A program made the position numbers and the translations under genes. This document shows positions 3,912-19,926 of a stretch of DNA of 23,175 nt, in pieces. Position 1 is the first letter of the stretch; every line of letters begins with the position of its first letter. Origin of the DNA: a virus; IMG/VR virus record IMGVR_UViG_3300024518_000147, positions 1 to 23,175 of that record; one strand, 5' to 3'. The notes beneath the pieces are model-generated. The model searched no databases. It saw only the letters and a program-made list of their open reading frames with translations, and had not been told where the DNA came from.

Positions 3912-4144
3912 CAGTAGCAGTAGTAGGGGCAAGTACATTGTACTCTACCAACAGAGCTAAAGCAGCACAAAGAGATGCTAGAAAGCAAGCTGAAAAAGAT
4001 AAAATTGCAGCACAGAAAGCTGAAATCTTTGCAGAAACAGAAGGGCAGGGTACAGGTGGTTTGGGTACTATTTCACTAGCGGTGGATGACGACATAACCG
4101 AAGAAGAAAAACTTAAACAAACTGGCTCGTCAGTCAGTATATAG
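3899..4144 (+). CDS. Small membrane-anchored gp7.3-like head/tail assembly protein, probable ATT start
   Basis: The conventional start would be TTG at 3938, giving 68 residues. Reading in frame upstream of it gives ITWIAVAVVGASTLYSTNRA, a hydrophobic helix followed by positive charges, which looks coded rather than random. The only plausible start in that extension is ATT at 3899, eight bases after a strong AAGGAG (3885-3890); there is no in-frame ATG or GTG. The 81-residue product would have an N-terminal membrane segment, a Lys/Ala/Gln-rich helix (KAAQRDARKQAEKDKIAAQK), a Gly-rich stretch and a terminal TGSSVSI. The Ser/Gly-rich tail ending in Ile and the place directly ahead of the portal gene recall T7 gp7.3, a small virion protein needed for tail attachment; this is inference. 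If ATT is wrong, use 3938-4144. Confidence 0.68.
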   Translation: MTWIAVAVVGASTLYSTNRAKAAQRDARKQAEKDKIAAQKAEIFAETEGQGTGGLGTISLAVDDDITEEEKLKQTGSSVSI

Positions 4145-4152
4145 GAGGCGCG

Positions 4153-5685
4153 ATGGACTTTACAGACGCACAAGCTAAATATATACGTGGTGAATTTAAA
4201 CTCAAAGGTCAGTTTAATAACGGTGGTGGTGAGCGAGAAACAGTATTAGACAATGCTGAAAGGTATGCAGGTTGGACTTTACCAAACATTTTTCCAGATG
4301 AAAATTTATCTGAGTCAGATGAAATGCAAAACGACTTTCAATCAGTTGGAGCGCAAGCGGTAATAAATTTATCTAATAAAATTACTATGAGTTTATTTCC
4401 AGCAGCTAGACCATTCTTCAAAATGGATTTATCAAAGAAGCAGAAAGAAGATGCTTTAGAAGAAATGGACGAAGCAACAGTTACTTCAACATTAGCAGCA
4501 CAAGAACGAGAAGCTATGAAGGAATTTGCTACATTGAATGGTAGGGTCACTTTAACAAACGTAGTACAGAATCTTATGATTGCTGGTAACTCTTGTTTGT
4601 ATATGCCACCAGATGAAAAAATGTCAAACTTTAGTTTACGCGACTACACTATTAAAAGAGATTTACGAGGAAACTTAGTTAAATTAATTTTATGTGAGAG
4701 TAAAGGCGTAGATGCTTTAAGTGATGAACTAGCAGCACTAGTAGGTGAATATGGTTATGAACACGATATGGAAGTTAAACTTTACACATGTGTTCAACGA
4801 TACGCTAAAGACAAATATATAGTATGGCAAGAAATAGAAGACGTTGGCTACTGTCATAAAAGAGTAGGTAACGAGACAACAGATACACTACCTTGGATTC
4901 CTTTAACATGGGATTTAGTAAGAGGTAAAGATTATGGTACTGGTTTAGTAGAAAGTTACTCAGGTGATTTTCATACACTATCATCATTAGCAGAAGCAAT
5001 CCTAGATTATACAGTTATATTAACAGATGTTAAAACCTTGGTTAATCCAGCAGGTCAAACAGACGTAAACGATATAATTGAAGCACCAAGTGGAGCTTAT
5101 GTATTAGGAGTTGAAGAAGATTTATATGTGCATACACCTAACGTGTCGGGTGCAACAGATTTCCTAGAGAAACAGTTTGCAGTAGTAGAAAGACGTATAG
5201 GCGTAGCATTCTTAATGAACTCGTCAGTGACTAGAGATGCAGAACGTGTAACAGCAGAAGAAATAAGAATGCAAGCCTTGGAACTAGAAAGTTCATTAGG
5301 TGGAGTATATTCTCGACTAGCTGAAGAACTACAGTTACCACTAGCAAAAAGATTACTAGTAAGGTTAGACAAAGAATTTAAGGATATAGTACCTATCGTA
5401 GTGACAGGTTTAGAATCATTATCCAGAAGTTCTCAACTAGATAGAATCAGAGCATTCTTTTCTGACTTGGTAGCATTATCAGATGTGCCAGAAGAAGTTA
5501 AAGATTGGATTGATTACGCACCCTTGATAGCTGAAATAGGCGCAGGGCATGGAGTAGACTATTCTAAGTTCTTACTAGACAAAGATGTAGCTGACCAGCG
5601 AAAGGCTGAGAGAGCTAAACACGAAGCAGCAGCAGCAGGTTTAGAAGCTGGTGCAGTAAATCAAGCACAAAACCAAGGACAGTAA
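4153..5685 (+). CDS. Portal (head-tail connector) protein, T7 gp8-like
   Basis: A 510-residue portal protein (T7 gp8 has 536) that forms the ring at the single vertex through which DNA enters and leaves the head. The N-terminal part carries the family hallmarks: ETVLDNAERYAGWTLPNIFP, then F-Q-S-V-G-A-Q-A-V-I-N-L-S-N-K, then LFPAARPFFKMDLS. These align with T7 gp8's ...YTIPSLFP..., ...W-Q-A-V-G-A-R-G-L-N-N-L-A-S-K and ...LFP. The C-terminal third contains VTAEEIRMQALELESSLGG, also typical of this connector family, and ends in an Ala/Gln-rich tail. ATG 4153 follows GGAGG by four bases, which overlaps the previous stop. The stop TAA abuts the scaffold ATG directly. Confidence 0.96.
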   Translation: MDFTDAQAKYIRGEFKLKGQFNNGGGERETVLDNAERYAGWTLPNIFPDENLSESDEMQNDFQSVGAQAVINLSNKITMSLFPAARPFFKMDLSKKQKEDALEEMDEATVTSTLAAQEREAMKEFATLNGRVTLTNVVQNLMIAGNSCLYMPPDEKMSNFSLRDYTIKRDLRGNLVKLILCESKGVDALSDELAALVGEYGYEHDMEVKLYTCVQRYAKDKYIVWQEIEDVGYCHKRVGNETTDTLPWIPLTWDLVRGKDYGTGLVESYSGDFHTLSSLAEAILDYTVILTDVKTLVNPAGQTDVNDIIEAPSGAYVLGVEEDLYVHTPNVSGATDFLEKQFAVVERRIGVAFLMNSSVTRDAERVTAEEIRMQALELESSLGGVYSRLAEELQLPLAKRLLVRLDKEFKDIVPIVVTGLESLSRSSQLDRIRAFFSDLVALSDVPEEVKDWIDYAPLIAEIGAGHGVDYSKFLLDKDVADQRKAERAKHEAAAAGLEAGAVNQAQNQGQ

Positions 5686-6522
5686 ATGACCGATAACGCA
5701 GAACAAACGAAGACCCCCAATGCGGAAGGTGAAAAAACAACCGAGGGATTAAAAAGTCCCAATGAAGGTTATAAAGATGATGCCCGATTAGATGGAAATG
5801 GAAATCCATTATCAGAAGCGGATGCAGCTAAAGCAGTAGAAGATAAAAAATTAGCAGACCAAAAAGCAGTAGACGATAAACCTACTGGTGAAGGTGACAA
5901 ACCCAAAGTTGAATTTGATAAATCTGGCTTAGACCAAGTTACAGACCTAATCAAAGATGCAGGACTATCAATGGCAGACGTAGCGAAATCCGTTACAGCA
6001 GAAGATGGTAAGGTTACACCAGCTATTTTAAAAGCATTAGAAGAAAAGCATGGAGCAGGAGTAGCATCTCTAATTGTTAGTCAATTAGAAGGGATTCATA
6101 AATCTAATGTAGCAGTAGCGCAAGCTAAGGATAAAGCAGTATTCGACCAAGTTCATGAGATATTCAACGACCCGCAAGGTGGTGAAGAAACATGGAAAGA
6201 ACTTAGTGGGTGGGCTAAAGAAAAAGTACCAAATGAACAACGAGCAGAACTAAACAAATTATTATCTCAAGGTGGTTTAGCAGCCAAACTAGCAGTTAAT
6301 GAATTAGTTAGTATGTTTAAAGGTTCAGGTGATTACACACAGTCAGCACAATTAGAACAGGGCGATGAATTAAACAACGCACCTACTACTTCGATGATTG
6401 ATAAAGTAAGTTACCAAAATGAATTACGCGCATTAATGAATGCAGGGGAAGATTATAATTCTTCAGTAAAAATAAAAGAGTTAAACAGACGCAGAGAAAT
6501 CTCGATGAAGCGTGGAATTTAA
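5686..6522 (+). CDS. Capsid assembly scaffolding protein, T7 gp9-like
   Basis: A 278-residue protein (T7 gp9 has 307) that would guide capsid subunits into the procapsid and leave before maturation. It is strongly charged. The first 85 residues are an acidic, low-complexity region rich in Asp, Glu, Lys, Ala and Gly. The middle is predicted helical (LDQVTDLIKDAGLSMADVAK; LLSQGGLAAKLAVNELV). The C-terminus is basic (ELNRRREISMKRGI), as expected for the capsid-binding end of a scaffold. Its position between portal and major capsid genes is decisive, because sequence similarity in this family is low. ATG immediately follows the portal TAA, with AAGGA just inside the portal gene. Confidence 0.9.
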   Translation: MTDNAEQTKTPNAEGEKTTEGLKSPNEGYKDDARLDGNGNPLSEADAAKAVEDKKLADQKAVDDKPTGEGDKPKVEFDKSGLDQVTDLIKDAGLSMADVAKSVTAEDGKVTPAILKALEEKHGAGVASLIVSQLEGIHKSNVAVAQAKDKAVFDQVHEIFNDPQGGEETWKELSGWAKEKVPNEQRAELNKLLSQGGLAAKLAVNELVSMFKGSGDYTQSAQLEQGDELNNAPTTSMIDKVSYQNELRALMNAGEDYNSSVKIKELNRRREISMKRGI

Positions 6523-6533
6523 TATAATTATTA
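6513..6533 (+). promoter_or_regulatory. Weak candidate phage promoter ahead of the capsid gene
   Basis: Starting inside the scaffold stop region, this AT-rich stretch shares TG, two bases, then ATTTAATA with the two strong promoter-like motifs at 7711 and 20676, and about two thirds of positions overall. T7 has its phi10 promoter at the equivalent place. In AT-rich DNA such similarity can arise by chance, so this is tentative. Confidence 0.3.
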
Positions 6534-6555
6534 ACGACAAAAGGAAAACAACTTA

Positions 6556-7662
6556 ATGTCAATAGTAGGACAAGCAGTAGCAAACGACCAAGTACGCTCA
6601 GGCCATCAAGGTGGAGTAGATTCAGGTAACGTAAACCCGTTATACATTGAACAGTATGGTGGTGAGGTTGAACATCGTTTCTTAAAGAAATCTATGATGC
6701 GTCAATTCTTTAAGTTCAAGACCATCCGTGGTACTGATACTTTAACAAACGACCGAATCGGTCACAGTTCTTTACAGAAAGTATCACGTGGTGTAAGACC
6801 TACCGATGATGCACCAACCTTCGATAACATCTCTATCAAAGTAGATACAATCGTATTAGCACGAACCAATGAGTTCTTGTTAGATGATTTCTTATCTCAC
6901 ATTGATACGAGAACAGAAGTTGGTAAAGAGCATGGTATGGAGATTGGTAAATTCTTCGATGAATCATTCTTGGTTCAAGGAATTAAAGCTTCTCAAATTA
7001 CTAACAAAGACCCCGCGGGAACTTTACTTGGTGGATGGGAAGATGCAGTAAATGATGGTTCGGCTTCAAAACCTTCCAACATTGTACGAACAGCACCTAT
7101 CGACTTCCAAGGTGGAACAATCAAGATTCTTGATGCAGTTGGAGATGAAACTGACCCTGATTTACTAGAGTTAGCAATCTTAGATATGTGCCAAGCAATC
7201 GAAGAAAAAGATGTTGATATCGAAGATGCAATCTTATTGATGCGTCCAGAACAGCGATACACGTTGCTCAAGAATGATAAGTTAATTAGTACTGACTTCT
7301 CTCTTGGTAATGGTAACTATGCCAAAGGGCAGGTATTAGAAGCAAATGGTGTAAGAATCATGGCAACTAACCGATTCCCTAAGCAAGCAGATGTTGGTGT
7401 AACTCACTTCCTATCTAATGCTGGTAATGGTAACGCTTACGATGTAACTCAGGCTGATGTGAACTGTAAAGTTTGCTTACTTATGCCTAAAGCATTACTA
7501 GCGGGTGAAACTATCCCATTGACTTCTGACGTATATTACGACAAGAAAGAAATGCAGTGGTTTATCGACTCATACTTAGCGTATGCTGTTACACCAAACC
7601 GAGCTGAAATGGCGGCTGGAATCTTCAGATTCGACCCTGATTTACAGGTTCCAACACCTTAA
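6556..7662 (+). CDS. Major capsid protein, T7 gp10A-like
   Basis: A 368-residue capsid protein (T7 gp10A has about 345) of the HK97-fold podovirus family. The N-terminal part contains YIEQYGGEVEHRFLKKSMM followed by RGTDTLTNDRIG, the order seen in T7-like capsids (tail region, then E-loop). The middle has DTIVLARTNEFLLDDF. The C-terminal half has DIEDAILLMRPEQRYTLL and VLEANGVRIMATNRFP, the latter close to the G-x-x-I-x-x-(T/S)-N-x-x-P block of the family. ATG 6556 is preceded by AAAAGGAAAA. It is the third gene of the portal-scaffold-capsid triad. No slippery heptamer or extended -1 frame is evident at its 3' end, so no gp10B-like frameshift product is claimed. Confidence 0.96.
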   Translation: MSIVGQAVANDQVRSGHQGGVDSGNVNPLYIEQYGGEVEHRFLKKSMMRQFFKFKTIRGTDTLTNDRIGHSSLQKVSRGVRPTDDAPTFDNISIKVDTIVLARTNEFLLDDFLSHIDTRTEVGKEHGMEIGKFFDESFLVQGIKASQITNKDPAGTLLGGWEDAVNDGSASKPSNIVRTAPIDFQGGTIKILDAVGDETDPDLLELAILDMCQAIEEKDVDIEDAILLMRPEQRYTLLKNDKLISTDFSLGNGNYAKGQVLEANGVRIMATNRFPKQADVGVTHFLSNAGNGNAYDVTQADVNCKVCLLMPKALLAGETIPLTSDVYYDKKEMQWFIDSYLAYAVTPNRAEMAAGIFRFDPDLQVPTP

Positions 7663-8398: not shown

Positions 8399-10789
8399 AT
8401 GAGAACAGAACAGTCGTACCCAACACCTATCAAGGGTGTGAGTACTTTAACGCCTAGAAACAGGCTAGTAGGGCAAGCAGCACTACAAGAAAACTTTAGG
8501 TCTGACCCTATCAATAAATTAACGAGAAGACCTCCTATGGAATGGTCTAGCTTTATGCGTACCGATTCAGGTAACGATTATAAACATCATCAGTATAAAC
8601 GTGGTGATGACGTTTTCGATATCTTAGTTGATACAGGTGGTATAGTAACCGGATTCAAGAATGGTGTATCACAAACAGTATCAGGTAACTTAACTAGTTA
8701 CCTGTCTAGTGTAGATATCAATTCAGTAAAATTAAATAATATTAACGATACAACATTTGTACTTAATAGAGAAAAAACAGTAACGAAAGATGGGACGTTA
8801 GACGAACTAAACACAGAGAAGGTAGCGCATATTAATGTTGTCGCTGCAATGAATTATGGGGAAACACTAACAGTAACCATACTGACAGGTGCAATAAGAA
8901 ATACTATTAGCTACTCTATACCATTAGTTGGTACATCAGGGAACTTTGATGCAGCAGACCAAGCAAGAGCAACTAATGAAGTAGCAAGTCAGATAGCCGC
9001 CCTAGTTACAGCAGCTTTCACAGGAACACTAACAGCTATAGCTTACGGCTCTAGCGTTGCTTTATGGTGGGGATTCTCACCGACAGATTGGGTAGAAGTG
9101 GAAGTGGAAACTGGTCGAGGTGACGGGAGTATTGTAGCAGTAAATTCAGTAATCGAAAAAGTAGATGGCTTACCTTTGTATGCAGTAAACGGAACTAGAA
9201 TTACAGTTAAACCCAATCCTACATCAGACAAGGGTACATACTATTTAGAAGCGGTAGCAACTGACCCCGCCGCAGTAATAGCGGGTACGCCAGCAAGTAG
9301 GATTTTACAAGAAGTTGTGTGGACGGAATCACGCTCACCTACACAGCAATACAATCTTACCAGTGCAACAATGCCACACGAAATAGTTTGGTCGGGTTCG
9401 CAATTTGATATAGCACCCATTGCTTGGGATGAAAGATTAACAGGTGACGATGACTCGGTAAAAGTACCTAGCTTTGTTGGTAAAACAATTTCAGCATTAG
9501 GTTACTTCCAAAAGAGATTAGTATTAGTTTCCGACGATGAAGTTTCAATGACAGAGACAGATAACATATTTAATTTCTGGAAAGCTTCAGCGGTACAATT
9601 GCTAGTAACAGACCCAATTAATATTTCGTCCAGCGCAGTAGGTATTAATAAATTACAAAGTATTGTAACCCATAATAGGGATTTGTTAGTAATAGCTTCC
9701 AATGGACAATTTAAAGTTGACGGGACAATACCAGCAACACCACAAACGGTGTCGATGCCGCAAGTATCTTCATACAGTGTACAAACATTTACAGACTCAG
9801 TATCAATGGGTAGTGATGTTTACTTACCATTAAGTTATGGTGATAGTTCTGGACTACAGATATATAGTGGTAAAAGAAATACAACACAGGATATTGCTAA
9901 ATCCATTTCGGACCATGTAGTAGATTACGTTTCTGGAAGAATATCAGTACTCGCAGCAAACCCGAATATTGGAATGCTTGCTTTAGTTTCAGAAGATGTT
10001 AGTAACGAAATTATTATATACGAAACATCAGAAGATATGTCAGGTAAGCAAACACAAGCATCGTGGAGTAAATGGATACTTCCAGCAACGACAGAAATAA
10101 TTAACTTAACCTTCGACGAAGATGCGTTAAACGTAGTTTGTAAAGACGCGGGTAATATCATTTTGAAGAAGATGGAAATGCACTCTTTAGGGTTAATATT
10201 AAATACAGAAAGAGTTTATTTGGATAACATGGTGCGCCTTGATTCTTCAGACGGGCTAACAGCAACAGTACCTACTAATTATAGTATGGTAGCGGGAACA
10301 ATTATAGTAGCAGCAGATGGTACTGAATACCCTTTGAGTAAAGTAACCTATACAGAAGCAGCAGGTACGATAACCTTTGATGAAGATATCAGTGGTGGAG
10401 TAGCATGTAAGATTTATATGGGTGAACAGTTTAGTTCAAAGTTCAGACCGACTAGACCCTATCGTAGAGATGACCAAGGTATAGTAGTAACCTCAGACAG
10501 ATTAAGAGTAGCAAAGTTTATTTTAAATGTTGATGAAACAGTTGAAGTAAATATGGCTATCATATCTGACTATAGTGACTTCGATGACCAAGAATTTAAT
10601 TCGAGGTATGTTGGTGGTGCAGGTAATTTAATTGGTGAAGTAACACCGTACTCAGGTGATGTTAAATTTAGTTACAGTATGAATGCTGACTTATCAGAAG
10701 TAGAATTTTATACAGATGGTTACTTAGGTTTAACTATATCAGGAATATCATGGGCAGGTAATTATTACCAAGCAAGTAGGAGAATGTAA
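8399..10789 (+). CDS. Tail tubular protein B, T7 gp12-like (nozzle)
   Basis: A 796-residue protein, almost exactly the length of T7 gp12 (794), which forms the tail nozzle. The N-terminal segment has P-I-K-G-V-S near the start and then NKLTRRPPMEW, matching T7's ...K-G-G-I-S... and ...Q-K-R-P-P... The body is beta-rich. Near the C-terminus are RPYRRDDQGIVV and SDRLRVAKFILNVDETVEV, the region where the family has its conserved R-L-(Q/R)-(L/V) strand, followed by RYVGGAGNLIGEVTPYSGDVKFSYSM in two adjoining blocks. ATG 8399 follows GGGAGG by five bases. The stop is two bases before the gp14-like start. Adapter and core proteins are expected to bind here. Confidence 0.95.
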   Translation: MRTEQSYPTPIKGVSTLTPRNRLVGQAALQENFRSDPINKLTRRPPMEWSSFMRTDSGNDYKHHQYKRGDDVFDILVDTGGIVTGFKNGVSQTVSGNLTSYLSSVDINSVKLNNINDTTFVLNREKTVTKDGTLDELNTEKVAHINVVAAMNYGETLTVTILTGAIRNTISYSIPLVGTSGNFDAADQARATNEVASQIAALVTAAFTGTLTAIAYGSSVALWWGFSPTDWVEVEVETGRGDGSIVAVNSVIEKVDGLPLYAVNGTRITVKPNPTSDKGTYYLEAVATDPAAVIAGTPASRILQEVVWTESRSPTQQYNLTSATMPHEIVWSGSQFDIAPIAWDERLTGDDDSVKVPSFVGKTISALGYFQKRLVLVSDDEVSMTETDNIFNFWKASAVQLLVTDPINISSSAVGINKLQSIVTHNRDLLVIASNGQFKVDGTIPATPQTVSMPQVSSYSVQTFTDSVSMGSDVYLPLSYGDSSGLQIYSGKRNTTQDIAKSISDHVVDYVSGRISVLAANPNIGMLALVSEDVSNEIIIYETSEDMSGKQTQASWSKWILPATTEIINLTFDEDALNVVCKDAGNIILKKMEMHSLGLILNTERVYLDNMVRLDSSDGLTATVPTNYSMVAGTIIVAADGTEYPLSKVTYTEAAGTITFDEDISGGVACKIYMGEQFSSKFRPTRPYRRDDQGIVVTSDRLRVAKFILNVDETVEVNMAIISDYSDFDDQEFNSRYVGGAGNLIGEVTPYSGDVKFSYSMNADLSEVEFYTDGYLGLTISGISWAGNYYQASRRM

Positions 10790-10791
10790 CA

Positions 10792-11385
10792 ATGTCAATT
10801 TATGCAGCAGCAGTATCAGCAGGTATGGGAGCAGCACAGGAACTTTTAACCGGTAGTAGTGCCCAATCTACGGCTGCATTTAATGCGGCTTATGATGCAC
10901 AAGCTAGACGTATAGCAGCAGCAGGTTTAAAGAACAATGCTGAAAAGAACATAGCAGCAATTAATCAAGATAAAATATTAACAAACTCGGCAATACAAAT
11001 GAAACAAAATGCAGCAGAAGCAATGATAAAAGTTAATGCAGCAACTTCAGGTGTTGAGGGTGGTAGTGTAGATGATGCAATTTACAGCACAGAAGCTAAT
11101 GAATCTTTCGCAATAAATAGAAACAAACGACAGGCTGACCAAGCAATTGAAGGTCAACTTGCTAAAGTTAATTCAGCGCAAGCATCACTACTTTCAGTAA
11201 GAGATGAGAAGATAAGTGCTACAGGCAATTTACTTAAAGCAGCATCTTCTTTAGATTCGGGTGACTTCGCAGCAATGGGAGAATCGTTTGGATTCGAAAA
11301 ACCAAAACAACAGACGTTACTAGATGAAGCAAGAAATGATGCTGCGTCGAGTATTAACGATAACATATTTGGAGCAGCAGCCTAA
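10792..11385 (+). CDS. Internal virion protein, T7 gp14-like
   Basis: A 197-residue protein, the same length as T7 gp14 (196), which is ejected first and forms an outer-membrane pore. The composition fits: Ala/Gly-rich N-terminus (IYAAAVSAGMGAAQELL), long Ala/Asn/Gln-rich helices (ARRIAAAGLKNNAEKNIAAI) and the segment ATSGVEGGSVDDAIYSTEAN. The latter corresponds to the (S/T)-G-(V/I)-x-(G)-x-S-V block found in gp14-like proteins. AGGAGA lies ten bases before the ATG, inside the gp12-like gene. The stop TAA shares its last A with the next ATG. Identification rests on length, composition and position as well as this short motif. Confidence 0.86.
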   Translation: MSIYAAAVSAGMGAAQELLTGSSAQSTAAFNAAYDAQARRIAAAGLKNNAEKNIAAINQDKILTNSAIQMKQNAAEAMIKVNAATSGVEGGSVDDAIYSTEANESFAINRNKRQADQAIEGQLAKVNSAQASLLSVRDEKISATGNLLKAASSLDSGDFAAMGESFGFEKPKQQTLLDEARNDAASSINDNIFGAAA

Positions 11386-13667
11386 TGGCAGAATTTGGTT
11401 TACCAAACAGAAACGCAACAGATGATGCTAATGCAGGAGTTATAAATCCTCCTGCTAAGAAGTCAGTTGCTAGGGACCAGAATATATCGAGAGATAAAGT
11501 ACGGTCCACTTTAGATGAGGGTGTAGAAGCAGTTGGAACCAACTTAGGGAATGCCCTTGCTAAGAAAGTTACTGATTACAGAAGCAACATAAAAGAACAA
11601 AAAAAGTTAGACGCAACTATTAGACAAGGCGTGAAACATAGTATTAATGAAGTTGATAAAGTTAAGAAACGTACTGGATGGCAGTTAGCAGTTTATGGGC
11701 AAGACGAAGAATATCGCGCGGCACAGCAACAAGCAGCTAAAACCATTATCAAGGATAGGTACAATGAAGAAGCGGTATCTGTAGACGAATATGCAGGAGA
11801 CGCACCAGACGAATACCACTTACGCTTAAAGAAAGGTCTGGATGCCGAATTAGACAAGTTTACAGGTGATAAAGACACCCAACGCGTACTAGCAAAAGAG
11901 TGGCAACAAAACGCAGCTAAACTAGCATCTAAACACTACGCAGCGCATTATGCTTGGAATCAACAACAACAAGCAGAAGTAACTAGAAGAGATATAGCGG
12001 TATCTTTAGACACTTACAACATTGATACAAATTCAGCTATATCGTTAGAAGAAGTGGAAGGGTTTAAAATGTTGGCTAAAGATATCTTCAATCTACAAGG
12101 GAGTCATAGGAGAAAAGGTCAAACAGCAGAATCGTATAGTAGGCTAGTTAATGAAGAAGTTAATACTACATTACGTAACGGTAACATTAACGCATTCAAG
12201 TTATCTACCGAGGCCGGTTGGGAAAAGTCACTTAACGCAGCAGACAAAGTTAAACGTGACCAAGCAATAGGTGCATACGATACAGATTTTAATAATCAAG
12301 TCGGTACTTCTTTGTCTAATGGTGAAGTTGAAGCAATGGAATCCAAATCAGTAGCAGAGGCTTCAGTAGCCTATGATGTACTAGATGGTCGTATAGATGA
12401 ACTAGAACAGCGAGAAAGCGGTACTGACAGAGGTAAAAAGATTATTGCCGATGCTAGGAAGCGGATAGCTCAAGGACGTAACAGGGCGCTTACAGCAGGT
12501 TCTAAGGCACAAGTAAAAGCTGAGAACACTCAGAAAATGGTAGATTCTTGGAATGCTGGTAATACTTTAGATATTGGTAATGCTCAAACAGAACTAAAGC
12601 CAACTAAAAAAGAAAGAGCGGAATCATTTGATGTTCACTTGTTTCAATCAGCAGGTGTTAATGGTGTCTCAGTAAATACAATGGAAGAATACAAAGACGT
12701 TGTTATGAGTAATCCTACAGTAGCAGCTAAAATTTCGAATGAAATGATAGACAAAGCTGTAGTGTCTCCAATGTTCTTACAAATGTCCAAACAGTTTACT
12801 GGTGGATTCACTTCTTTGTTTGATGAAGACGGTAAGCCATTACCAGCAGCAGAAACAGCTTTAGGTTCAGTTAGTCAATTTATGAAGTCAGATGCCTTTA
12901 GAAATAAGTTTGGTACAGCAGAGTATGATAACTACATTGAAATCAGAAATGGAATTCAGGGTGGATTAACAGCCGAGCAGATTAAAGAAAATATTGCTAG
13001 GTTTCAGGAACGCTCTGATAACATGGCAACTAAAAGAACTCAGTGGCCACTAGGTTACAAAGACGATAGAGTTACTCAAGAGCAATACATTGGACAACTA
13101 GTTCAAAGTGTTACTGGTCAGTTTCCATCGGACACACAAATTAGTAGTTACTTAGCTGATTACCAAAGAGGATTAATTCATAGTAATGATTCTCATGAGG
13201 GCGCTCAACAATACTTACGTGGCAGAGTTAAAACTCAGCGTGTTCAAGTAAAGAATCAAACGATTGAAGGTGGCTCGTACTTAGATGAAATTTCTAAGCA
13301 TGGCTACTCGTTTAATGACTTAATTGAAACAGCAGAGAATGACAACTTACTAGCTGCATTTATTGCGGTTGGTGGTGGTAACACTAGAAGATTCGATGCA
13401 GAAGGTAAACCGATGCCACCAATATCTAAATTGGAAGAACTAGGTGCAGGTTGGAGAATGACAGTAGACGATGGGATTGACGGTGTAGTATTACATTCTC
13501 AAGCATTTAAAGAACCCGTTGTGATATCTTCAGAATGGTTGAATCAGTGGGACCAACGTAGAGAGCTTCAAAGAATTAATAAAGAAGCACTTGATGACGG
13601 TACAGCAGCAGCTTACGTTAAGGAATTCCAGAAAGGTATAGCCTCTGAAAATCCTCTTAAACTATAG
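11385..13667 (+). CDS. Internal virion protein, T7 gp15-like
   Basis: A 760-residue protein (T7 gp15 has 747) that would be part of the internal core and be ejected to form the periplasmic tunnel with the gp16 equivalent. It is largely helical and hydrophilic, with no membrane segment. Near the N-terminus is a disordered, charged stretch. The body includes LAKEWQQNAAKLASKHYAAH and QVRAENTQK-like helices, and the C-terminal part contains ISKHGYSFNDLIETAENDNL. Direct motif recognition is weak, so the call relies on length and on its fixed place between gp14- and gp16-like genes. ATG overlaps the previous stop (TAATG). The next gene follows after ten bases that include an AGGAAA ribosome-binding site. 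Confidence 0.88.
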   Translation: MAEFGLPNRNATDDANAGVINPPAKKSVARDQNISRDKVRSTLDEGVEAVGTNLGNALAKKVTDYRSNIKEQKKLDATIRQGVKHSINEVDKVKKRTGWQLAVYGQDEEYRAAQQQAAKTIIKDRYNEEAVSVDEYAGDAPDEYHLRLKKGLDAELDKFTGDKDTQRVLAKEWQQNAAKLASKHYAAHYAWNQQQQAEVTRRDIAVSLDTYNIDTNSAISLEEVEGFKMLAKDIFNLQGSHRRKGQTAESYSRLVNEEVNTTLRNGNINAFKLSTEAGWEKSLNAADKVKRDQAIGAYDTDFNNQVGTSLSNGEVEAMESKSVAEASVAYDVLDGRIDELEQRESGTDRGKKIIADARKRIAQGRNRALTAGSKAQVKAENTQKMVDSWNAGNTLDIGNAQTELKPTKKERAESFDVHLFQSAGVNGVSVNTMEEYKDVVMSNPTVAAKISNEMIDKAVVSPMFLQMSKQFTGGFTSLFDEDGKPLPAAETALGSVSQFMKSDAFRNKFGTAEYDNYIEIRNGIQGGLTAEQIKENIARFQERSDNMATKRTQWPLGYKDDRVTQEQYIGQLVQSVTGQFPSDTQISSYLADYQRGLIHSNDSHEGAQQYLRGRVKTQRVQVKNQTIEGGSYLDEISKHGYSFNDLIETAENDNLLAAFIAVGGGNTRRFDAEGKPMPPISKLEELGAGWRMTVDDGIDGVVLHSQAFKEPVVISSEWLNQWDQRRELQRINKEALDDGTAAAYVKEFQKGIASENPLKL

Positions 13668-13677
13668 GAAAAAACAA

Positions 13678-16600
13678 ATGAGTGAAATAAATAAAGTAGT
13701 AGACGGTGACACAGCCGATATAACAGGTGATGCGCGAAACGAAAGAGTGCGTATTGAGGGTATCAATACTGCGGAATCTGTTTCACTTAACCAAGAAAAT
13801 ACAGAGACAGGGAAGCGAGCTAGTAAGTTTGCTTCTTCTGTATTACCTGTAGGTTCAGAAGTAGAAACGGACATTTCGAAAACAGATAAATTCCAGCGTA
13901 AGGTTGGTAAAGTAAGTCGAGTAATAAACGGTACACCAATTGATATGGGATTAGTTCAACTAGACCAAAACTTTTCTTCGTACTATACGAAACATGGTAA
14001 ACATTCCGACCCGACTACACACGAACAATATAAAGAATACTATTCTCCTTATGCTCCTTTTGAAGCAGGTGATAATGTAGAGCCACTATCAAGAGTAGAT
14101 TTTACTCTAATGGCAGAAGCACAAAAGAATTTTGAAGATACAAAGAAAAACTTTGAAGATGGTAAAGCAACACAAGAAGAACTAGATGCAGCAATGGTAC
14201 ACCTTTATAAAGATGGTGACAAAGTTTCTAGGTTTAGACACCAGTTACACAATTGGGATAAAGATGTTTCTTGGGATGCAGCAGACGGTTCAGTAAAGTT
14301 TGGTATGCAGATGGTATTAAAAGACCCTGCAATGAGAGAACAATATAATAGGGCAGTTAGAAACAGTACATTAGAAGTTTATGCAACACCAGAAGCACAA
14401 CCAACATTTTGGGAAAAGACTAAAGCTTCTTTCAGTATGATGAATGATGTATCAAGCTACATTGACGCTAACGACCTATGGCACGCTAGACGTATGGATG
14501 CTAACGGAGTAGAAGTAACAGACGAAGATTTAATTTCGAATGTACCTGCTCGTTTCCATAGTATGTTAATAGCAGAAAAACAACAAACTAATAGCATAGC
14601 TGCTATGACGTTAAAAGAACAACTAGAACAAGATTTAGCAAATGACAAAATCTGGCAGAATACAAATTTCTTTGAAGGTTTATTGTTAGGTGCTGGTGCA
14701 ATGATTACAAGTCCAGTTGCATTAACAGGTGGTGGACTACTTGCAAGCGGTAGTGCTAAAGCAGCACAGTACGTCGGTACGGTTGCTACTAAGCAATGGA
14801 TGAAAAGTACGGCTATAAAGAAAACAGCTACAATGGCTAACTGGGCCGCTTTAGGTTTCTCTGAGGAAGCAATAGCAGCGTTACCAAGATTAGCAGCAGA
14901 CCATACTTACATGGCTAAAGATTACTATTTGGATACCATGTTAGGTGGAGCATTCGGATTAGGTCTTGGTGGTATCGTAGAAGGTGTAGCTAAACCGTTT
15001 GTAAAGGGTATAGCTGAACGAAAAGAGTTAAGGGATAGCAGAGATGCTGAAGCCAGAGAACTCCAAGCACACGCTGAAGCAGAGGCTATGATAGCTAAGG
15101 GTGAATTACCTCAAGCTAAAAACGAAGCAGAAGCTACTTACAATGATAAAGTAAACGCAATTGACAACACACTAGGCGCTCAGACTAAAGTTAGAGATAC
15201 AACTAACATGTTCGACATGGATGAATTCAAAGCACAAAAGGATTTAGAGAAATCGTTTAGTCCTGAACTAGTAGCAGAGAATAAAATAGCTAAGGGTGAA
15301 TTACCTCAAGCTAAAAACGAAGCAGAAGCTACTTACAACGATAAAGTGACTTCTATTGATAACACGCTAGGCGCTCAAACTAAAGTTAGAGATACAACTA
15401 ATATGTTTGATATAGATGAATTCAAAGCACAAAAGGATTTAGAGAAATCGTTTAGTCCTGAACTTGTAGCAGAGAATAAAATAGCAGCTAAACAGAAAGG
15501 TGAATTATTCACTAAATGGGAAGCAGTAAACAAAATATCTCCTAAAGGTTTCAGAGCGATATCAGAAACATTAATGACAAACTTCCCTGTTAAGAAGCAA
15601 GGTCAAAGTGGTATGAGATTCTTAATTAACTCACAACTAGGTTTGAATGCTAAGAAGTTAAATCCAGACCAAAGAAAGATTGCTAATGAATTAAACTCAT
15701 TAACAGCACACATAGCTGGCGCATTCCCTGATGGTAAAATACCTAAGAATGTTGATACAGCAATTAAGCAAGCAACTTTCGCTCAACAAAAGTTTAAGCA
15801 GAATGCAGCAATGTCTGATTTACTTCAAGGTAAAGTTTCAAATGAAACCGGTACTTTAAATAAGTATGTAAACTTCTTAGAAGATTTAAGTGTATTTAAA
15901 GGTGTCGATATACTACCAGTTAGTAGACGAGAATTCTTTGAACAAAATACTGAAGTACTTAACAGATTAAATGATTTAGCAGAAGATGACGTTCATCTAA
16001 CAAAAGTGTTACCTAAAGAAGTTTCGTTCCTTAAAGATGTTGTAGAACTTAATAAGATGGCAGCAGTTAAAGATAACCCTGACTTCACAGCACTCATGGA
16101 AAGAATGAATGGAGTAGTCGCAGCAAGACTAGAACAACTTGAACTAGGTACATTGGAAAAGTTTACTGACTCAACTAAGAGTTTCGGTAAGTCTGCTAAA
16201 ATGTCAGCACCAGAAATTGCAGCTAAATTAAAAGAAGAAGGTTTAAAACCTAAAACTCCTGAATACTCAACTCGATTAAAAGAGCTAAGGCAAACAGGTA
16301 GAGTTGCAGTATCAGAAGAAGTTAATGCAATTGGTAAAGTAAACGAGTTTGAAATTGGTATGACTGATACTAAGCGTGCATTGAAAGTTGATTCAGTAGA
16401 AGAAACTAACAGAGCCGATTTAGATTTACGTGAAAAAGAATCTGTACTTGTTGCAGACGATTTAGACCAAGACTTATTACCTCGTTCATTTAAAGAGAAA
16501 GCTGAAAACATCAAGGCATTCAAAGACCCTTCAGTTGACAACTTAAAGATGGTTAAAACTAGACTTACAGATATAGCTAATAAACTAGGTGTATTAAAAG

Positions 16601-19600
16601 TTACTGGTAAAGCTGAGTTCAAAGCTCAGAACCAACGTATAAATGCTGTTAAGGTAGCATTGAAGAAAGATAAGAAAGCTGTAATTGATAGAATGATTTT
16701 ACGTCAAGATATGAATTTAGCTATGGAAGTTATACAAGCGTCAGATAGTATAGCTAGAAACGCTAAACGAGCAGATATGCAGTTAATTGCTAAGTTAGCG
16801 GAAGCTAGAAGTAAACAAACTGTAGAGGGTAGTGAGGCGAACCTAGAAGAAGCATACAAGGAGATTGCAAGTGAGAACGTTAAAGCAACCGCTAAGAGTA
16901 AAGGTGAGATTTGGGATAAATTAGACAAGGTAGAACAACATAAGCGTATTACTACTGAGATTGCAGCAGTAAGAAAAGCAGATGTTGCACCAAGTAAAAA
17001 TCCTTTGACGGAAACTTTGAAAGAAGAAGATTTTGATGTGTTAGATAAACATGGTCCAGAAGCTTTCCCTGAAGAAATAGCAGAAGTACAAGCTAAGGTA
17101 GATGCAGCAGTTGATTTCACTAGTGAGAGAACAGCCAAGAAGATTGGTGACGGTATTGCTGAGTGGGTTCGAGTAGGTGGTAAAAGACTTCTTGAACTTA
17201 ATTTAAAACCACGAGGTGCTTTAGATAGAATAGGTCGTATGGCTTCATTCTTAACTAAAGACATAGGTACTAGATTGCAACAATCGAAACTAACCTCTTT
17301 ACAATATTTTGGTGCTAACGTAACTGAAGTAGGTAAAGGATTTGGTGGTGCAAGCAAGAGAACCGCTACTGGTGGCTTAATTAAACACGCTGAATACCAA
17401 GACTCGATTATGCAAATAGCTCCCCACTACGTCCGTAGTATGGATGCCTACGCTATGTCAAAAGGTGAAGGTGCTTTAGGTAAAATGAAAGCTCAACAAG
17501 AAGCCGGTGTTGATAGCCCAATAGTTAAACAATTCAATAGAGATGTATTCACTATCCAAGAATTGCGCAGACAAGGTAAACCACTTCCTAAAGCTATGGA
17601 TGAATCTGTAATAAAATTCGTTGATGACTGGGATAAATACATGGACCACAATTTTAACAAGATGGTGGAAAACGGCATAGGTGGATTTAATCCTAAGAAG
17701 AAAGTTAAGAACTATATTCCTCATGTTTGGATGGATGGTAAATTTAAAGGTGCAATCAGTACTCACGGTATTGATAAAGTAACAGATGTAATTGAACAAG
17801 CTTACAAGCGGTCAATGCACGCTGGAACTAATCCTAGACCTCCTGAAGAAGCAAGAGCTATGGCTCAAGACTTAATTAGAGAAGTTATGGATGACACTAT
17901 TGTAAAAGATGGTTACATGCCAATGGCAGACAGTAGAGCAAAACATAGACAAGACTTAGACACAACAACAGAGATAGATGGTTTATCCATACTTGATTTG
18001 TTAGATGACGAAGTAATTGGTTTAGCAACTAAGTACAGTCACAGAATGTCAGGTTGGGTTGGTTTGTCAAAATCAACTAAAGGTATGTTTACTTCACTAG
18101 CAGACATTGATGGTTTCAAGAAGAACGTAATAGCTGAAGGTAAAGACAAAGGAGTCGATACAAAGAAAGGTGAACAGTTCTACGATGATGTAATAAACAT
18201 GATGTTCGGTAGACCAACAAGAGATGGTTTAGACGAAGAACTTAGACAAATAAAAGATTTGACAGCGTTAAGATTAATGGGTGGTTTAGGAACTGCACAG
18301 TTGATTGAAACAGGTCAGGTAATAACAAGGTCTACATTACAGTTATTCTCAGATAAAGCAGCAGTTAAGAAGGTGTTCGACTTAGCAGGAGAAGACATAA
18401 ATAACAAACAGCTTATGAGGGAGATACAGTCGATTTCTAGTATAACAAATGATATAGAGTTCATGGACAGACAATCAGTACATTTAGACCAAGCTAAGTT
18501 AGACGAAGCTGGTAATGTACGGAAGTTGTCGTTATGGTTAGCAGACAAAGGAACTTTTGGTAAACACAAAGCGATAGCTAGTAGAGCACTGGGTAAAGTA
18601 TCCGGTTTTAATGCTGTACGAAGATTCCAATTTAGAGTATCGCAAGCTAGTTTCGTAGTAGACGTAGCAAAACACTTTAAATCTGGAACAGGTAAGATGG
18701 GTAATGCAAGGATGGCAGATGTTGGACTAACTGATTCACTAGGTGACAATGTAGACTTAGCTAATGTATTTAAAAAGTATGTCGAGTTTGATGAAGCTGG
18801 TTTACCAACTAAGTTGAATGTAGATAAATGGCCTAAGCACGTTAGAGAAGAATTTCAATATGCAATGACTCGTGATGCTAACCAACAAGTACAACATACT
18901 GTAGTAGGAGAACTACCACCTTGGATGAATAATCCATTGATGGCTTTAGCTTTCCAATTTAGACAAATGCCAATAGTAGCTCAAAATAAATCTCTAGGTC
19001 GTTCAATGGCCTTTGCAGATAAAGAAGCTGTAACTGGTGTAATGTTAAATGCAGCAATGTCAGGTATGGTTAGGTATTCTAAGTTCGCAGTATTAGGATT
19101 AGGTGTAGCAACTATCACAGGTAATGAATGGAAAGAACCTAATGGTGAAATGATGGACGTACCAAAATATATAACACAATTTGGAATGTTTCCAGATACA
19201 GTTGATTTGGTAACTGACTCGTATAAAGCCGGTGTTAAAGGTGATATCAAGAAAGCTCTTGGTCAAGTACCTGCATTGAACACAGCATTTCAGTATATGG
19301 AAGCATTAGGGATTACTGAAGGTAGAGGACAAATGGATGCAGCAATGAGTTTAGTACCGTTACAGAATACTGTAGCAGGTGATATGACTCAAGCAGGACT
19401 CAGGGAAATATTTGGTGATTTAAAACTACCAGAAATAAAGAGTAAACCTACTAAGACAAGTAAACCTAAAACTAGTGTATCAAGTAAACCTGAAACTAAA
19501 GTAACCAAATCGGATAAGAAACATTTGGACTTTATAAAGAAGGAAGAACAGTTTCATGCTACAGCTTACAAAGACAATACTCAGCATAGCATAGGCTACG

Positions 19601-19926
19601 GGACTCGAACAGATGACCCAGATGAAATATCTGGTGCTAAGAAGATTTCTAAGGCTGAAGCAACTAGGAGACTAGAGGCTTGGACTGCTAAGGATAAAAA
19701 GTACATTGAAAGCAAAGGCAACTGGACTAAGAATGAATTAGCTGCACTAACAAGCTTTACATACAACTTAGGTAGAGGTAACTTTAATACCTTAATTAAA
19801 GGTAGAGATAAGAAAACTATAGCTAAGAAGATTAAACTTTACAATAAGTCTGCCGGTAAAGTATTAACTGGCCTCGTTAAACGACGAGATGCAGAATCTA
19901 AACTATTCTCAACACCAGACAAGTAG
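13678..19926 (+). CDS. Giant gp16-like internal virion protein with N-terminal SNase-like and C-terminal GH24 lysozyme domains
   Basis: A 2082-residue ejection protein (T7 gp16 has 1318). Residues 1 to about 109 match the staphylococcal-nuclease fold: VVDGDT (D9, D11), R-V-R-I-E-G-I-N-T-A-E (R25, N30, T31, E33) and DKFQR (D70, R74). These correspond to SNase D19, D21, R35, D40, T41, E43, D83 and R87, with only D40 changed (to Asn). Hydrophobic segments lie at about 331-360 and 419-443. A 65-residue unit is duplicated at 472-601. A long helical region leads to the core-like part with NYIPHVWMDGKF (about 1345) and LMGGLGTAQLIETG (about 1533). A Lys/Thr/Ser/Pro linker (about 1920-1945) precedes a GH24 lysozyme with E1957, D1966, SIGYGT (1971-1976) and ALTSFTYNLG. 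phiKMV gp36 also has a C-terminal lysozyme. ATG is preceded by AGGAAA. Confidence 0.93.
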   Translation: MSEINKVVDGDTADITGDARNERVRIEGINTAESVSLNQENTETGKRASKFASSVLPVGSEVETDISKTDKFQRKVGKVSRVINGTPIDMGLVQLDQNFSSYYTKHGKHSDPTTHEQYKEYYSPYAPFEAGDNVEPLSRVDFTLMAEAQKNFEDTKKNFEDGKATQEELDAAMVHLYKDGDKVSRFRHQLHNWDKDVSWDAADGSVKFGMQMVLKDPAMREQYNRAVRNSTLEVYATPEAQPTFWEKTKASFSMMNDVSSYIDANDLWHARRMDANGVEVTDEDLISNVPARFHSMLIAEKQQTNSIAAMTLKEQLEQDLANDKIWQNTNFFEGLLLGAGAMITSPVALTGGGLLASGSAKAAQYVGTVATKQWMKSTAIKKTATMANWAALGFSEEAIAALPRLAADHTYMAKDYYLDTMLGGAFGLGLGGIVEGVAKPFVKGIAERKELRDSRDAEARELQAHAEAEAMIAKGELPQAKNEAEATYNDKVNAIDNTLGAQTKVRDTTNMFDMDEFKAQKDLEKSFSPELVAENKIAKGELPQAKNEAEATYNDKVTSIDNTLGAQTKVRDTTNMFDIDEFKAQKDLEKSFSPELVAENKIAAKQKGELFTKWEAVNKISPKGFRAISETLMTNFPVKKQGQSGMRFLINSQLGLNAKKLNPDQRKIANELNSLTAHIAGAFPDGKIPKNVDTAIKQATFAQQKFKQNAAMSDLLQGKVSNETGTLNKYVNFLEDLSVFKGVDILPVSRREFFEQNTEVLNRLNDLAEDDVHLTKVLPKEVSFLKDVVELNKMAAVKDNPDFTALMERMNGVVAARLEQLELGTLEKFTDSTKSFGKSAKMSAPEIAAKLKEEGLKPKTPEYSTRLKELRQTGRVAVSEEVNAIGKVNEFEIGMTDTKRALKVDSVEETNRADLDLREKESVLVADDLDQDLLPRSFKEKAENIKAFKDPSVDNLKMVKTRLTDIANKLGVLKVTGKAEFKAQNQRINAVKVALKKDKKAVIDRMILRQDMNLAMEVIQASDSIARNAKRADMQLIAKLAEARSKQTVEGSEANLEEAYKEIASENVKATAKSKGEIWDKLDKVEQHKRITTEIAAVRKADVAPSKNPLTETLKEEDFDVLDKHGPEAFPEEIAEVQAKVDAAVDFTSERTAKKIGDGIAEWVRVGGKRLLELNLKPRGALDRIGRMASFLTKDIGTRLQQSKLTSLQYFGANVTEVGKGFGGASKRTATGGLIKHAEYQDSIMQIAPHYVRSMDAYAMSKGEGALGKMKAQQEAGVDSPIVKQFNRDVFTIQELRRQGKPLPKAMDESVIKFVDDWDKYMDHNFNKMVENGIGGFNPKKKVKNYIPHVWMDGKFKGAISTHGIDKVTDVIEQAYKRSMHAGTNPRPPEEARAMAQDLIREVMDDTIVKDGYMPMADSRAKHRQDLDTTTEIDGLSILDLLDDEVIGLATKYSHRMSGWVGLSKSTKGMFTSLADIDGFKKNVIAEGKDKGVDTKKGEQFYDDVINMMFGRPTRDGLDEELRQIKDLTALRLMGGLGTAQLIETGQVITRSTLQLFSDKAAVKKVFDLAGEDINNKQLMREIQSISSITNDIEFMDRQSVHLDQAKLDEAGNVRKLSLWLADKGTFGKHKAIASRALGKVSGFNAVRRFQFRVSQASFVVDVAKHFKSGTGKMGNARMADVGLTDSLGDNVDLANVFKKYVEFDEAGLPTKLNVDKWPKHVREEFQYAMTRDANQQVQHTVVGELPPWMNNPLMALAFQFRQMPIVAQNKSLGRSMAFADKEAVTGVMLNAAMSGMVRYSKFAVLGLGVATITGNEWKEPNGEMMDVPKYITQFGMFPDTVDLVTDSYKAGVKGDIKKALGQVPALNTAFQYMEALGITEGRGQMDAAMSLVPLQNTVAGDMTQAGLREIFGDLKLPEIKSKPTKTSKPKTSVSSKPETKVTKSDKKHLDFIKKEEQFHATAYKDNTQHSIGYGTRTDDPDEISGAKKISKAEATRRLEAWTAKDKKYIESKGNWTKNELAALTSFTYNLGRGNFNTLIKGRDKKTIAKKIKLYNKSAGKVLTGLVKRRDAESKLFSTPDK
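15091..15480 (+). repeat. Two tandem 195-bp repeats inside the gp16-like gene
   Basis: Unit 1 is 15091-15285 and unit 2 is 15286-15480. By eye they differ at about 14 of 195 bases, and only three of 65 residues change (N-A to T-S, M to I). The unit starts IAKGELPQAK and ends SPELVAENK. A third, diverged start (IAAKQKGEL) follows directly. It is in frame and looks like a recent duplication. Confidence 0.95.

Follow-up and report, generated by a model that had tools for sequence, protein, structure and literature searches.

A T7 gp16-like ejection protein that begins with a staphylococcal-nuclease-type domain

The locus studied here raises the question of what a domain resembling staphylococcal nuclease (SNase) may be doing at the front of a phage ejection protein, and, before that, whether it is a SNase domain, how far the phages carrying it agree in its active site, and in which compartment of the host cell it would come to lie.

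The gp16-like gene and its locus

The window, by which we mean the whole stretch of DNA analysed, is a 23-kb IMG/VR virus record (23,175 nucleotides) of a marine T7-like phage, and no close DNA relatives of it were found among phages. The plus-strand open reading frame at 13678-19926 translates as originally predicted into a gp16-like ejection (internal virion) protein of 2082 aa, with a ribosome-binding-like AGGA read in the sequence on its 5' side (13666-13669, +). Upstream of this gene lie the portal, capsid, tail-tube A and B, gp14-like and gp15-like genes. The gp14-like internal virion protein (10792-11385, +, 197 aa) is matched by PHROG 805 at E 3.8e-9, and the gp15-like internal virion protein (11385-13667, +, 760 aa) is assigned by PHROG 3883 (E 1e-4), by gene order and by counterparts of about 760 aa in the relatives. 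The window hence has the gp14-gp15-gp16 order after the tail-tube genes by which a T7 gp16-type protein is recognized. The protein itself matches PHROG 342, named 'internal virion protein with endolysin domain', at E 2.8e-66, and in the profile-profile comparison by hhalign its C-terminal half is homologous to the T7 gp16 set with E 1.2e-31 and 99.9% probability over 660 columns, which bears out the original assignment to the T7 type. A profile search also matches it to solved ejection-protein structures; for residues 135-440 no convincing match was found in the PDB.

All parts of the protein are given here on the plus strand. The conserved gp16 core, at residues ~1095-1905 (16960-19392), is the best PHROG 342 stretch and is also seen in the alignment. 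The hydropathy scan gives two hydrophobic stretches, of which stretch I (residues ~331-438, 14668-14991) is the counterpart of T7 gp16 membrane region I and stretch II (residues ~1797-1815, 19066-19122) lies within the core, and a phage lysozyme domain stands at the C-terminus (residues 1954-2073, 19537-19896; Pfam PF00959, 63.4 bits, E 3.4e-17, cut-off 22.3). In addition, a 195-bp in-frame tandem duplication is present within the gene at 15091-15485, having 2 copies with 93% matches and repeating about 65 residues; the second copy is absent from the aligned relatives.

Family and fold of the N-terminal domain

The N-terminus of the gp16-like protein is, we are practically sure, a true homologue of the SNase family. 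On the isolated residues 1-135 the Pfam SNase family PF00565 scores 23.7 bits (E 6.9e-5) and in the full-length protein 19.7 bits, the curated cut-off being 21. Among the relatives the scores are 40.3 for L014, 33.8 for L008, 32.5 for L007, 26.5 for R8W, 25.6 for L017 and 23.8 for H4/4, with L009, L011 and L013 slightly under the cut-off and L010 without a match. The window domain matches PHROG 452, a phage 'endonuclease' family, at E 3.9e-15, and a profile built from the SNase domains of 10 relatives matches free-standing phage SNases at E 2.2e-14. Against the PDB the same profile finds 283 chains in all, and every match listed is a SNase (E 1.6e-9 to 1e-8). The AlphaFold model, made from the same alignment with middling confidence (pLDDT 72, pTM 0.65) and weakest at residues 34-39, just past the active-site loop, has the SNase OB-fold barrel with its helices, and Foldseek matches it to SNase crystals with E 1.3e-7 and TM 0.64 (296 PDB matches at E<=0.001). 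In a viral structure library the best match is a large protein with 51% identity over the domain.

The original prediction of a SNase fold over the first ~109 residues thus holds for the fold and falls short in the extent, since the SNase-like C-terminal part (SSYYTKHGKHSDPTTHEQYKEYY) is conserved too and the domain reaches residue ~128, i.e. 13678-14061 (+). A Pfam Mcm-like_N match (22.2 bits) was rejected, being under its cut-off of 26 and overlapping the SNase region.

Position relative to the T7 transglycosylase

In T7 gp16 the lytic transglycosylase occupies about residues 5-139, and in the window no such N-terminal enzyme is present, the SNase domain (residues 1-128) standing in its place as had been proposed. 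The hydropathy peaks are at 331 and 420 in the window protein and at 330 and 394 in T7 gp16, showing that about 330 residues separate the start from the first membrane stretch in both, and the PHROG 342 alignment begins at residue 141 of the L014 protein, corresponding to profile position 135. The equal spacing together with this alignment places the SNase domain in the transglycosylase slot. Judged from such sequence comparison, the domain has replaced the N-terminal transglycosylase of T7. The latter is not universal, as it is missing in the P22/Sf6 counterparts (PMC8954989).

Active-site residues

The alignment shows, in accordance with the original reading, that D21, R35, T41, E43, D83 and R87 of SNase correspond to D11, R25, T31, E33, D70 and R74 of the window, and that the position of D40, which is a Ca2+ ligand in SNase, is occupied by Asn (N30). 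D19 and T22 are also matched (D9, T12), and the G86 position beside R87 is Gln73 in the window and Gly in most relatives. Throughout the aligned virion domains D19, D21, T22, R35, E43 and R87 are invariant; D21, R35, E43 and R87 are kept in L036 and L039 as well, as read in the sequence, and these four catalytic residues vary in no domain examined. Over the 10 relatives 24 of 131 columns are invariant, including all of D11, R25, E33 and R74 (random expectation 9e-4), which is more than chance would give. The acidic and Arg positions are thus far from varying freely among homologues, and as the predicted structure has the SNase barrel, neither of the two outcomes named beforehand as refuting the original prediction was obtained.

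Of the 13 domains, 10 have Asn at the D40 position and two (L010 and L017) have Asp; in L013 the residue is lost along with the whole DTP motif (D40-T41-P42). The secreted nuclease of Anoxybacillus phage A403 also has Asn at this position, showing that Asn is not a mark of the virion forms alone. The substitution leaves the family membership intact, as this rests on fold and profile, but it lowers the claim of activity. We lean towards a catalytically active domain, because the catalytic residues are invariant over a wide divergence; against activity speak the replacement of D40 by Asn, the degeneracy of L013 and the hazard of a Ca2+ nuclease beside packaged DNA.

Distribution among phages and descent

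Counting the window, the domain is borne by the gp16-like protein of 13 distinct phage genomes or fragments, with one near-copy (L033, of L007) outside this count, and chance similarity or an assembly artefact is rejected on this basis. The carriers are the window, the cultured Alteromonas phages vB_AspP-H4/4 and vB_AmeP_R8W (H4/4 and R8W), and the IMG/VR records L005/L011, L007, L008, L009, L010, L013, L014, L017, L036 and L039. In the cultured phages and the IMG/VR records alike the domain stands at or near the protein front, and the relatives' domains are 40-53% identical to that of the window. In the tree the virion domains group in a single clade apart from the free-standing nucleases, both cytosolic and secreted, with support of 100/100, and their sub-clades agree with those of the gp16 core, pointing to one entry followed by inheritance with gp16. 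Most simply, then, the domain would have entered once and been inherited with gp16.

The gp16 proteins of three Vibrio phages with related cores (JSF7, K437b and phiV141) are without the SNase domain. Among bacterial and archaeal genomes 24 places were matched by patterns, none of them a relative of the domain, and viral contigs scanned with the window domain or core as a single sequence gave no relatives, alignments being required. Secreted-type SNases with signal-like fronts are encoded in three records (L044 5671-6570, L043 5512-6579 and L045 1-567); they have the block TPESVxPxxxxNxxxGKxA in common with the virion domains, at 33-43% identity, and are a possible source of the domain. As a separate observation, positions ~1101-1231 of PHROG 8809, a profile of 2317 positions, match the SNase domains of L007, L009, L014 and L017 (best E 1.3e-7), and this profile may represent a further family of very large phage proteins that have a SNase domain in an internal position.

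Peptidoglycan hydrolases around the domain

The carriers differ in where the enzyme for the cell wall is placed. The SNase domain of L005 is directly preceded by a lysozyme-like domain fused to it in frame, giving lysozyme, SNase and gp16 in one open reading frame. H4/4 and R8W have a separate lysozyme frame ahead of SNase, ending in GTA AAA AAG TAG, and an in-phase A_AAA_AAG slippery site lies at this lysozyme stop in both (15974-15983 in the H4/4 record, L001; 11965-11974 in the R8W record, L002), at which a shift of -1 takes translation directly into the SNase frame. The SNase frame of H4/4 is without a start codon before codon 88, from which it follows that the full domain would be made only as a lysozyme fusion. 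The authors of H4/4 noted the slippery sequence and frameshift (PMC5658483); R8W is annotated without a frameshift. The lysozyme frame of R8W was treated as the lysis endolysin (PMC8228385), and it is likely to be a virion lysozyme also.

The window has its lysozyme at the opposite end, the C-terminus of the gp16-like protein. In L010 the gp15-like protein (4118-6952, 944 aa) resembles over residues 294-493 the baseplate hub or tail lysozyme family PHROG 27932 (E 2.4e-18), and in L015, L016 and L017 a lysozyme gene lies 3' of gp16, where no frameshift joining gp16 to the downstream lysozyme was found, the two being separate genes. The lysozyme frame of L017 (12210-12734) overlaps the gp16 end in another frame and has a signal-anchor-like front (MKWKYLLALMLVLLVKK). 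A small open reading frame after gp16 in L013 (12174-12557) and in L014 (8894-9235) carries an SxHxxxxAxD-like motif and resembles M15-type peptidase endolysins. L014 further encodes at 9279-11501 a tail-fibre protein whose N-terminus is of the T7 type and which contains an extended collagen-like repeat (Pfam Collagen, 116 bits).

Probable location and possible function

In T7, residues 1-156 of gp16 form wings on the gp15 tunnel in the periplasm; the central part of the protein enters the cytoplasm, and close to the C-terminus there is a second membrane region (PMC8954989). This topology would leave both protein ends in the periplasm, which fits the finding of a lysozyme at either end in the phages studied here. 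The periplasm is also the likeliest compartment because the SNase domain is directly joined to a wall enzyme in three relatives (L005, H4/4 and R8W). By homology with T7, the domain is very probably ejected with gp16, having been enclosed in the head as a component of the core, and would probably come to rest in the periplasm rather than the cytoplasm, beside the gp15 tunnel and in the same compartment as the fused peptidoglycan hydrolase of the relatives. There it would most likely act as a Ca2+-dependent phosphodiesterase cutting nucleic acid exposed in the envelope, for example DNA from competing phages or whatever other DNA lies beyond the sealed tunnel, with the phage's own genome shielded inside. 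Nucleic acid in the envelope is a tentative choice of substrate, and the explanation as a whole, i.e. a SNase in the transglycosylase slot that is ejected, lies in the periplasm and cuts envelope-exposed nucleic acid, seems to us evenly poised.

The main rival is that the fold has been reused structurally: the SNase-like barrel would catalyse little or nothing, its only role being that of a wing or docking module in the gp15-gp16 tunnel or of a clamp that binds DNA. We consider this somewhat unlikely. The domain has been kept even though D40 is Asn in most carriers and D40-T41-P42 is lost in L013, the region after the barrel (YYTKYGxHPDPxxHxxYKEYY) is conserved to the same degree as the active site, and an active nuclease would be dangerous beside packaged DNA, all of which a structural role accommodates; a purely structural barrel, however, would not need D21, R35, E43 and R87, and these stay constant at 40-53% identity, while the Asn loses some of its weight given the A403 nuclease. 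As to the hazard, in P22 packaged DNA can reach the ejection-protein space (PMC8402733). In seawater, a free Ca2+ nuclease inside a head full of DNA ought to endanger the genome of the phage that carries it, and this speaks for inhibition, shielding or low activity.

The original prediction suggested that the domain could act on host DNA or RNA on entry. Delivered to the cytoplasm, it could in the early phase of infection cut the DNA or RNA of the host or its nucleotide defence signals; host nucleic acid is an obvious substrate of a SNase, and the ejected gp16 core does reach the cytoplasm in T7. However, the N-terminal part of T7 gp16 remains in the periplasm (PMC8954989), a peptidoglycan hydrolase directly precedes the domain in L005, H4/4 and R8W, and in the cytoplasm the phage's own genome would be exposed as well, so that action there, as it was stated, ranks below the structural reading and is in our view quite improbable. 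More improbable still is that the domain attacks a phosphodiester polymer of the envelope other than nucleic acid and so helps to bore through the envelope as the T7 transglycosylase does. In favour of this, a wall-cutting enzyme has given up its slot to such a domain here and, in an independent case, in the baseplate hub of BtI1 (PMC2147016), and the reaction of SNases is the hydrolysis of phosphodiesters; against it, these phages retain a separate lysozyme for the wall. We know of no SNase-family enzyme with such a polymer as substrate.

Returning to envelope-exposed nucleic acid as the target, its fullest version is that a marine T7-like clade injects an active, tunnel-mounted SNase into the periplasm, which would destroy competing or stray DNA in the envelope with the own genome protected and so exclude rivals before any phage gene is expressed. 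This we regard as unlikely, and a large effect on competitors is doubtful given the few gp16 copies per virion.

Relation to known systems

The window domain agrees with the SNase family PF00565, including the thermonuclease of S. aureus and the phage SNases SPbeta YokF and the cyanophage 'endonuclease' of PHROG 452, in fold, in motif order, in D19-G-D21-T22, R35, T41, E43 and R87, and in the C-terminal helical part. Unlike the free-standing SNases, it is the N-terminus of a 2082-aa virion protein without a signal peptide, falls in a clade of its own, and shares with most virion forms the Asn at D40. With T7 gp16 the window protein has in common the gp14-gp15-gp16 order, the C-terminal core and two hydrophobic regions in matching places, whereas it has SNase instead of the N-terminal transglycosylase and a lysozyme at the C-terminus. 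The same SNase-gp16 protein is present in H4/4 and R8W (Foturvirus) as gp40/gp44, with about 46% domain identity and annotated only as 'putative internal virion protein'; there the lysozyme is in front via a -1 frameshift, in contrast to the C-terminal fusion of the window. In K1E and K1-5 the gp15-like proteins have lysozyme activity (PMC8954989), which is likewise a swapping of enzymatic domains among ejection proteins, theirs being a peptidoglycan hydrolase and not a nuclease.

No case in T7-like gp16 proteins was known to the original prediction, and for the gp16 type none was found in the open-licence literature, where SNase or thermonuclease is not linked to an internal virion protein and nothing was found for SNase with virion or tail; the 2022 review on ejection proteins is silent on nucleases (PMC8954989). 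A precedent does exist outside the gp16 type, in the BtI1 homologue of the gp147 baseplate hub of Bacillus phage 0305phi8-36, where an N-terminal SNase-related domain replaces the transglycosylase (PMC2147016). The likeness, known from annotation only, is that of a SNase-related N-terminus at the place of a relative's transglycosylase in a virion entry protein; BtI1 is a long-tailed phage-like element of a Gram-positive host, and its protein is a hub, not an ejection protein. Both the domain and the machine in the window are thus known; their combination is not described in the open-licence literature searched, and the BtI1 hub is the nearest precedent.

Ejection proteins of short-tailed phages are known for wall-cutting enzymes, and for these proteins no conserved nuclease-type domain in this slot is described in the open-licence literature searched. 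The enzyme modules of the entry machine are swapped as a kit: the SNase domain is always at the front of gp16, and the lysozyme may precede it, by fusion or by -1 frameshift, stand behind it, or belong to gp15. If the domain is active, it raises the questions of how a phage packs a nuclease beside its own genome and where this nuclease acts, both open to experiment with the cultured Alteromonas phages.
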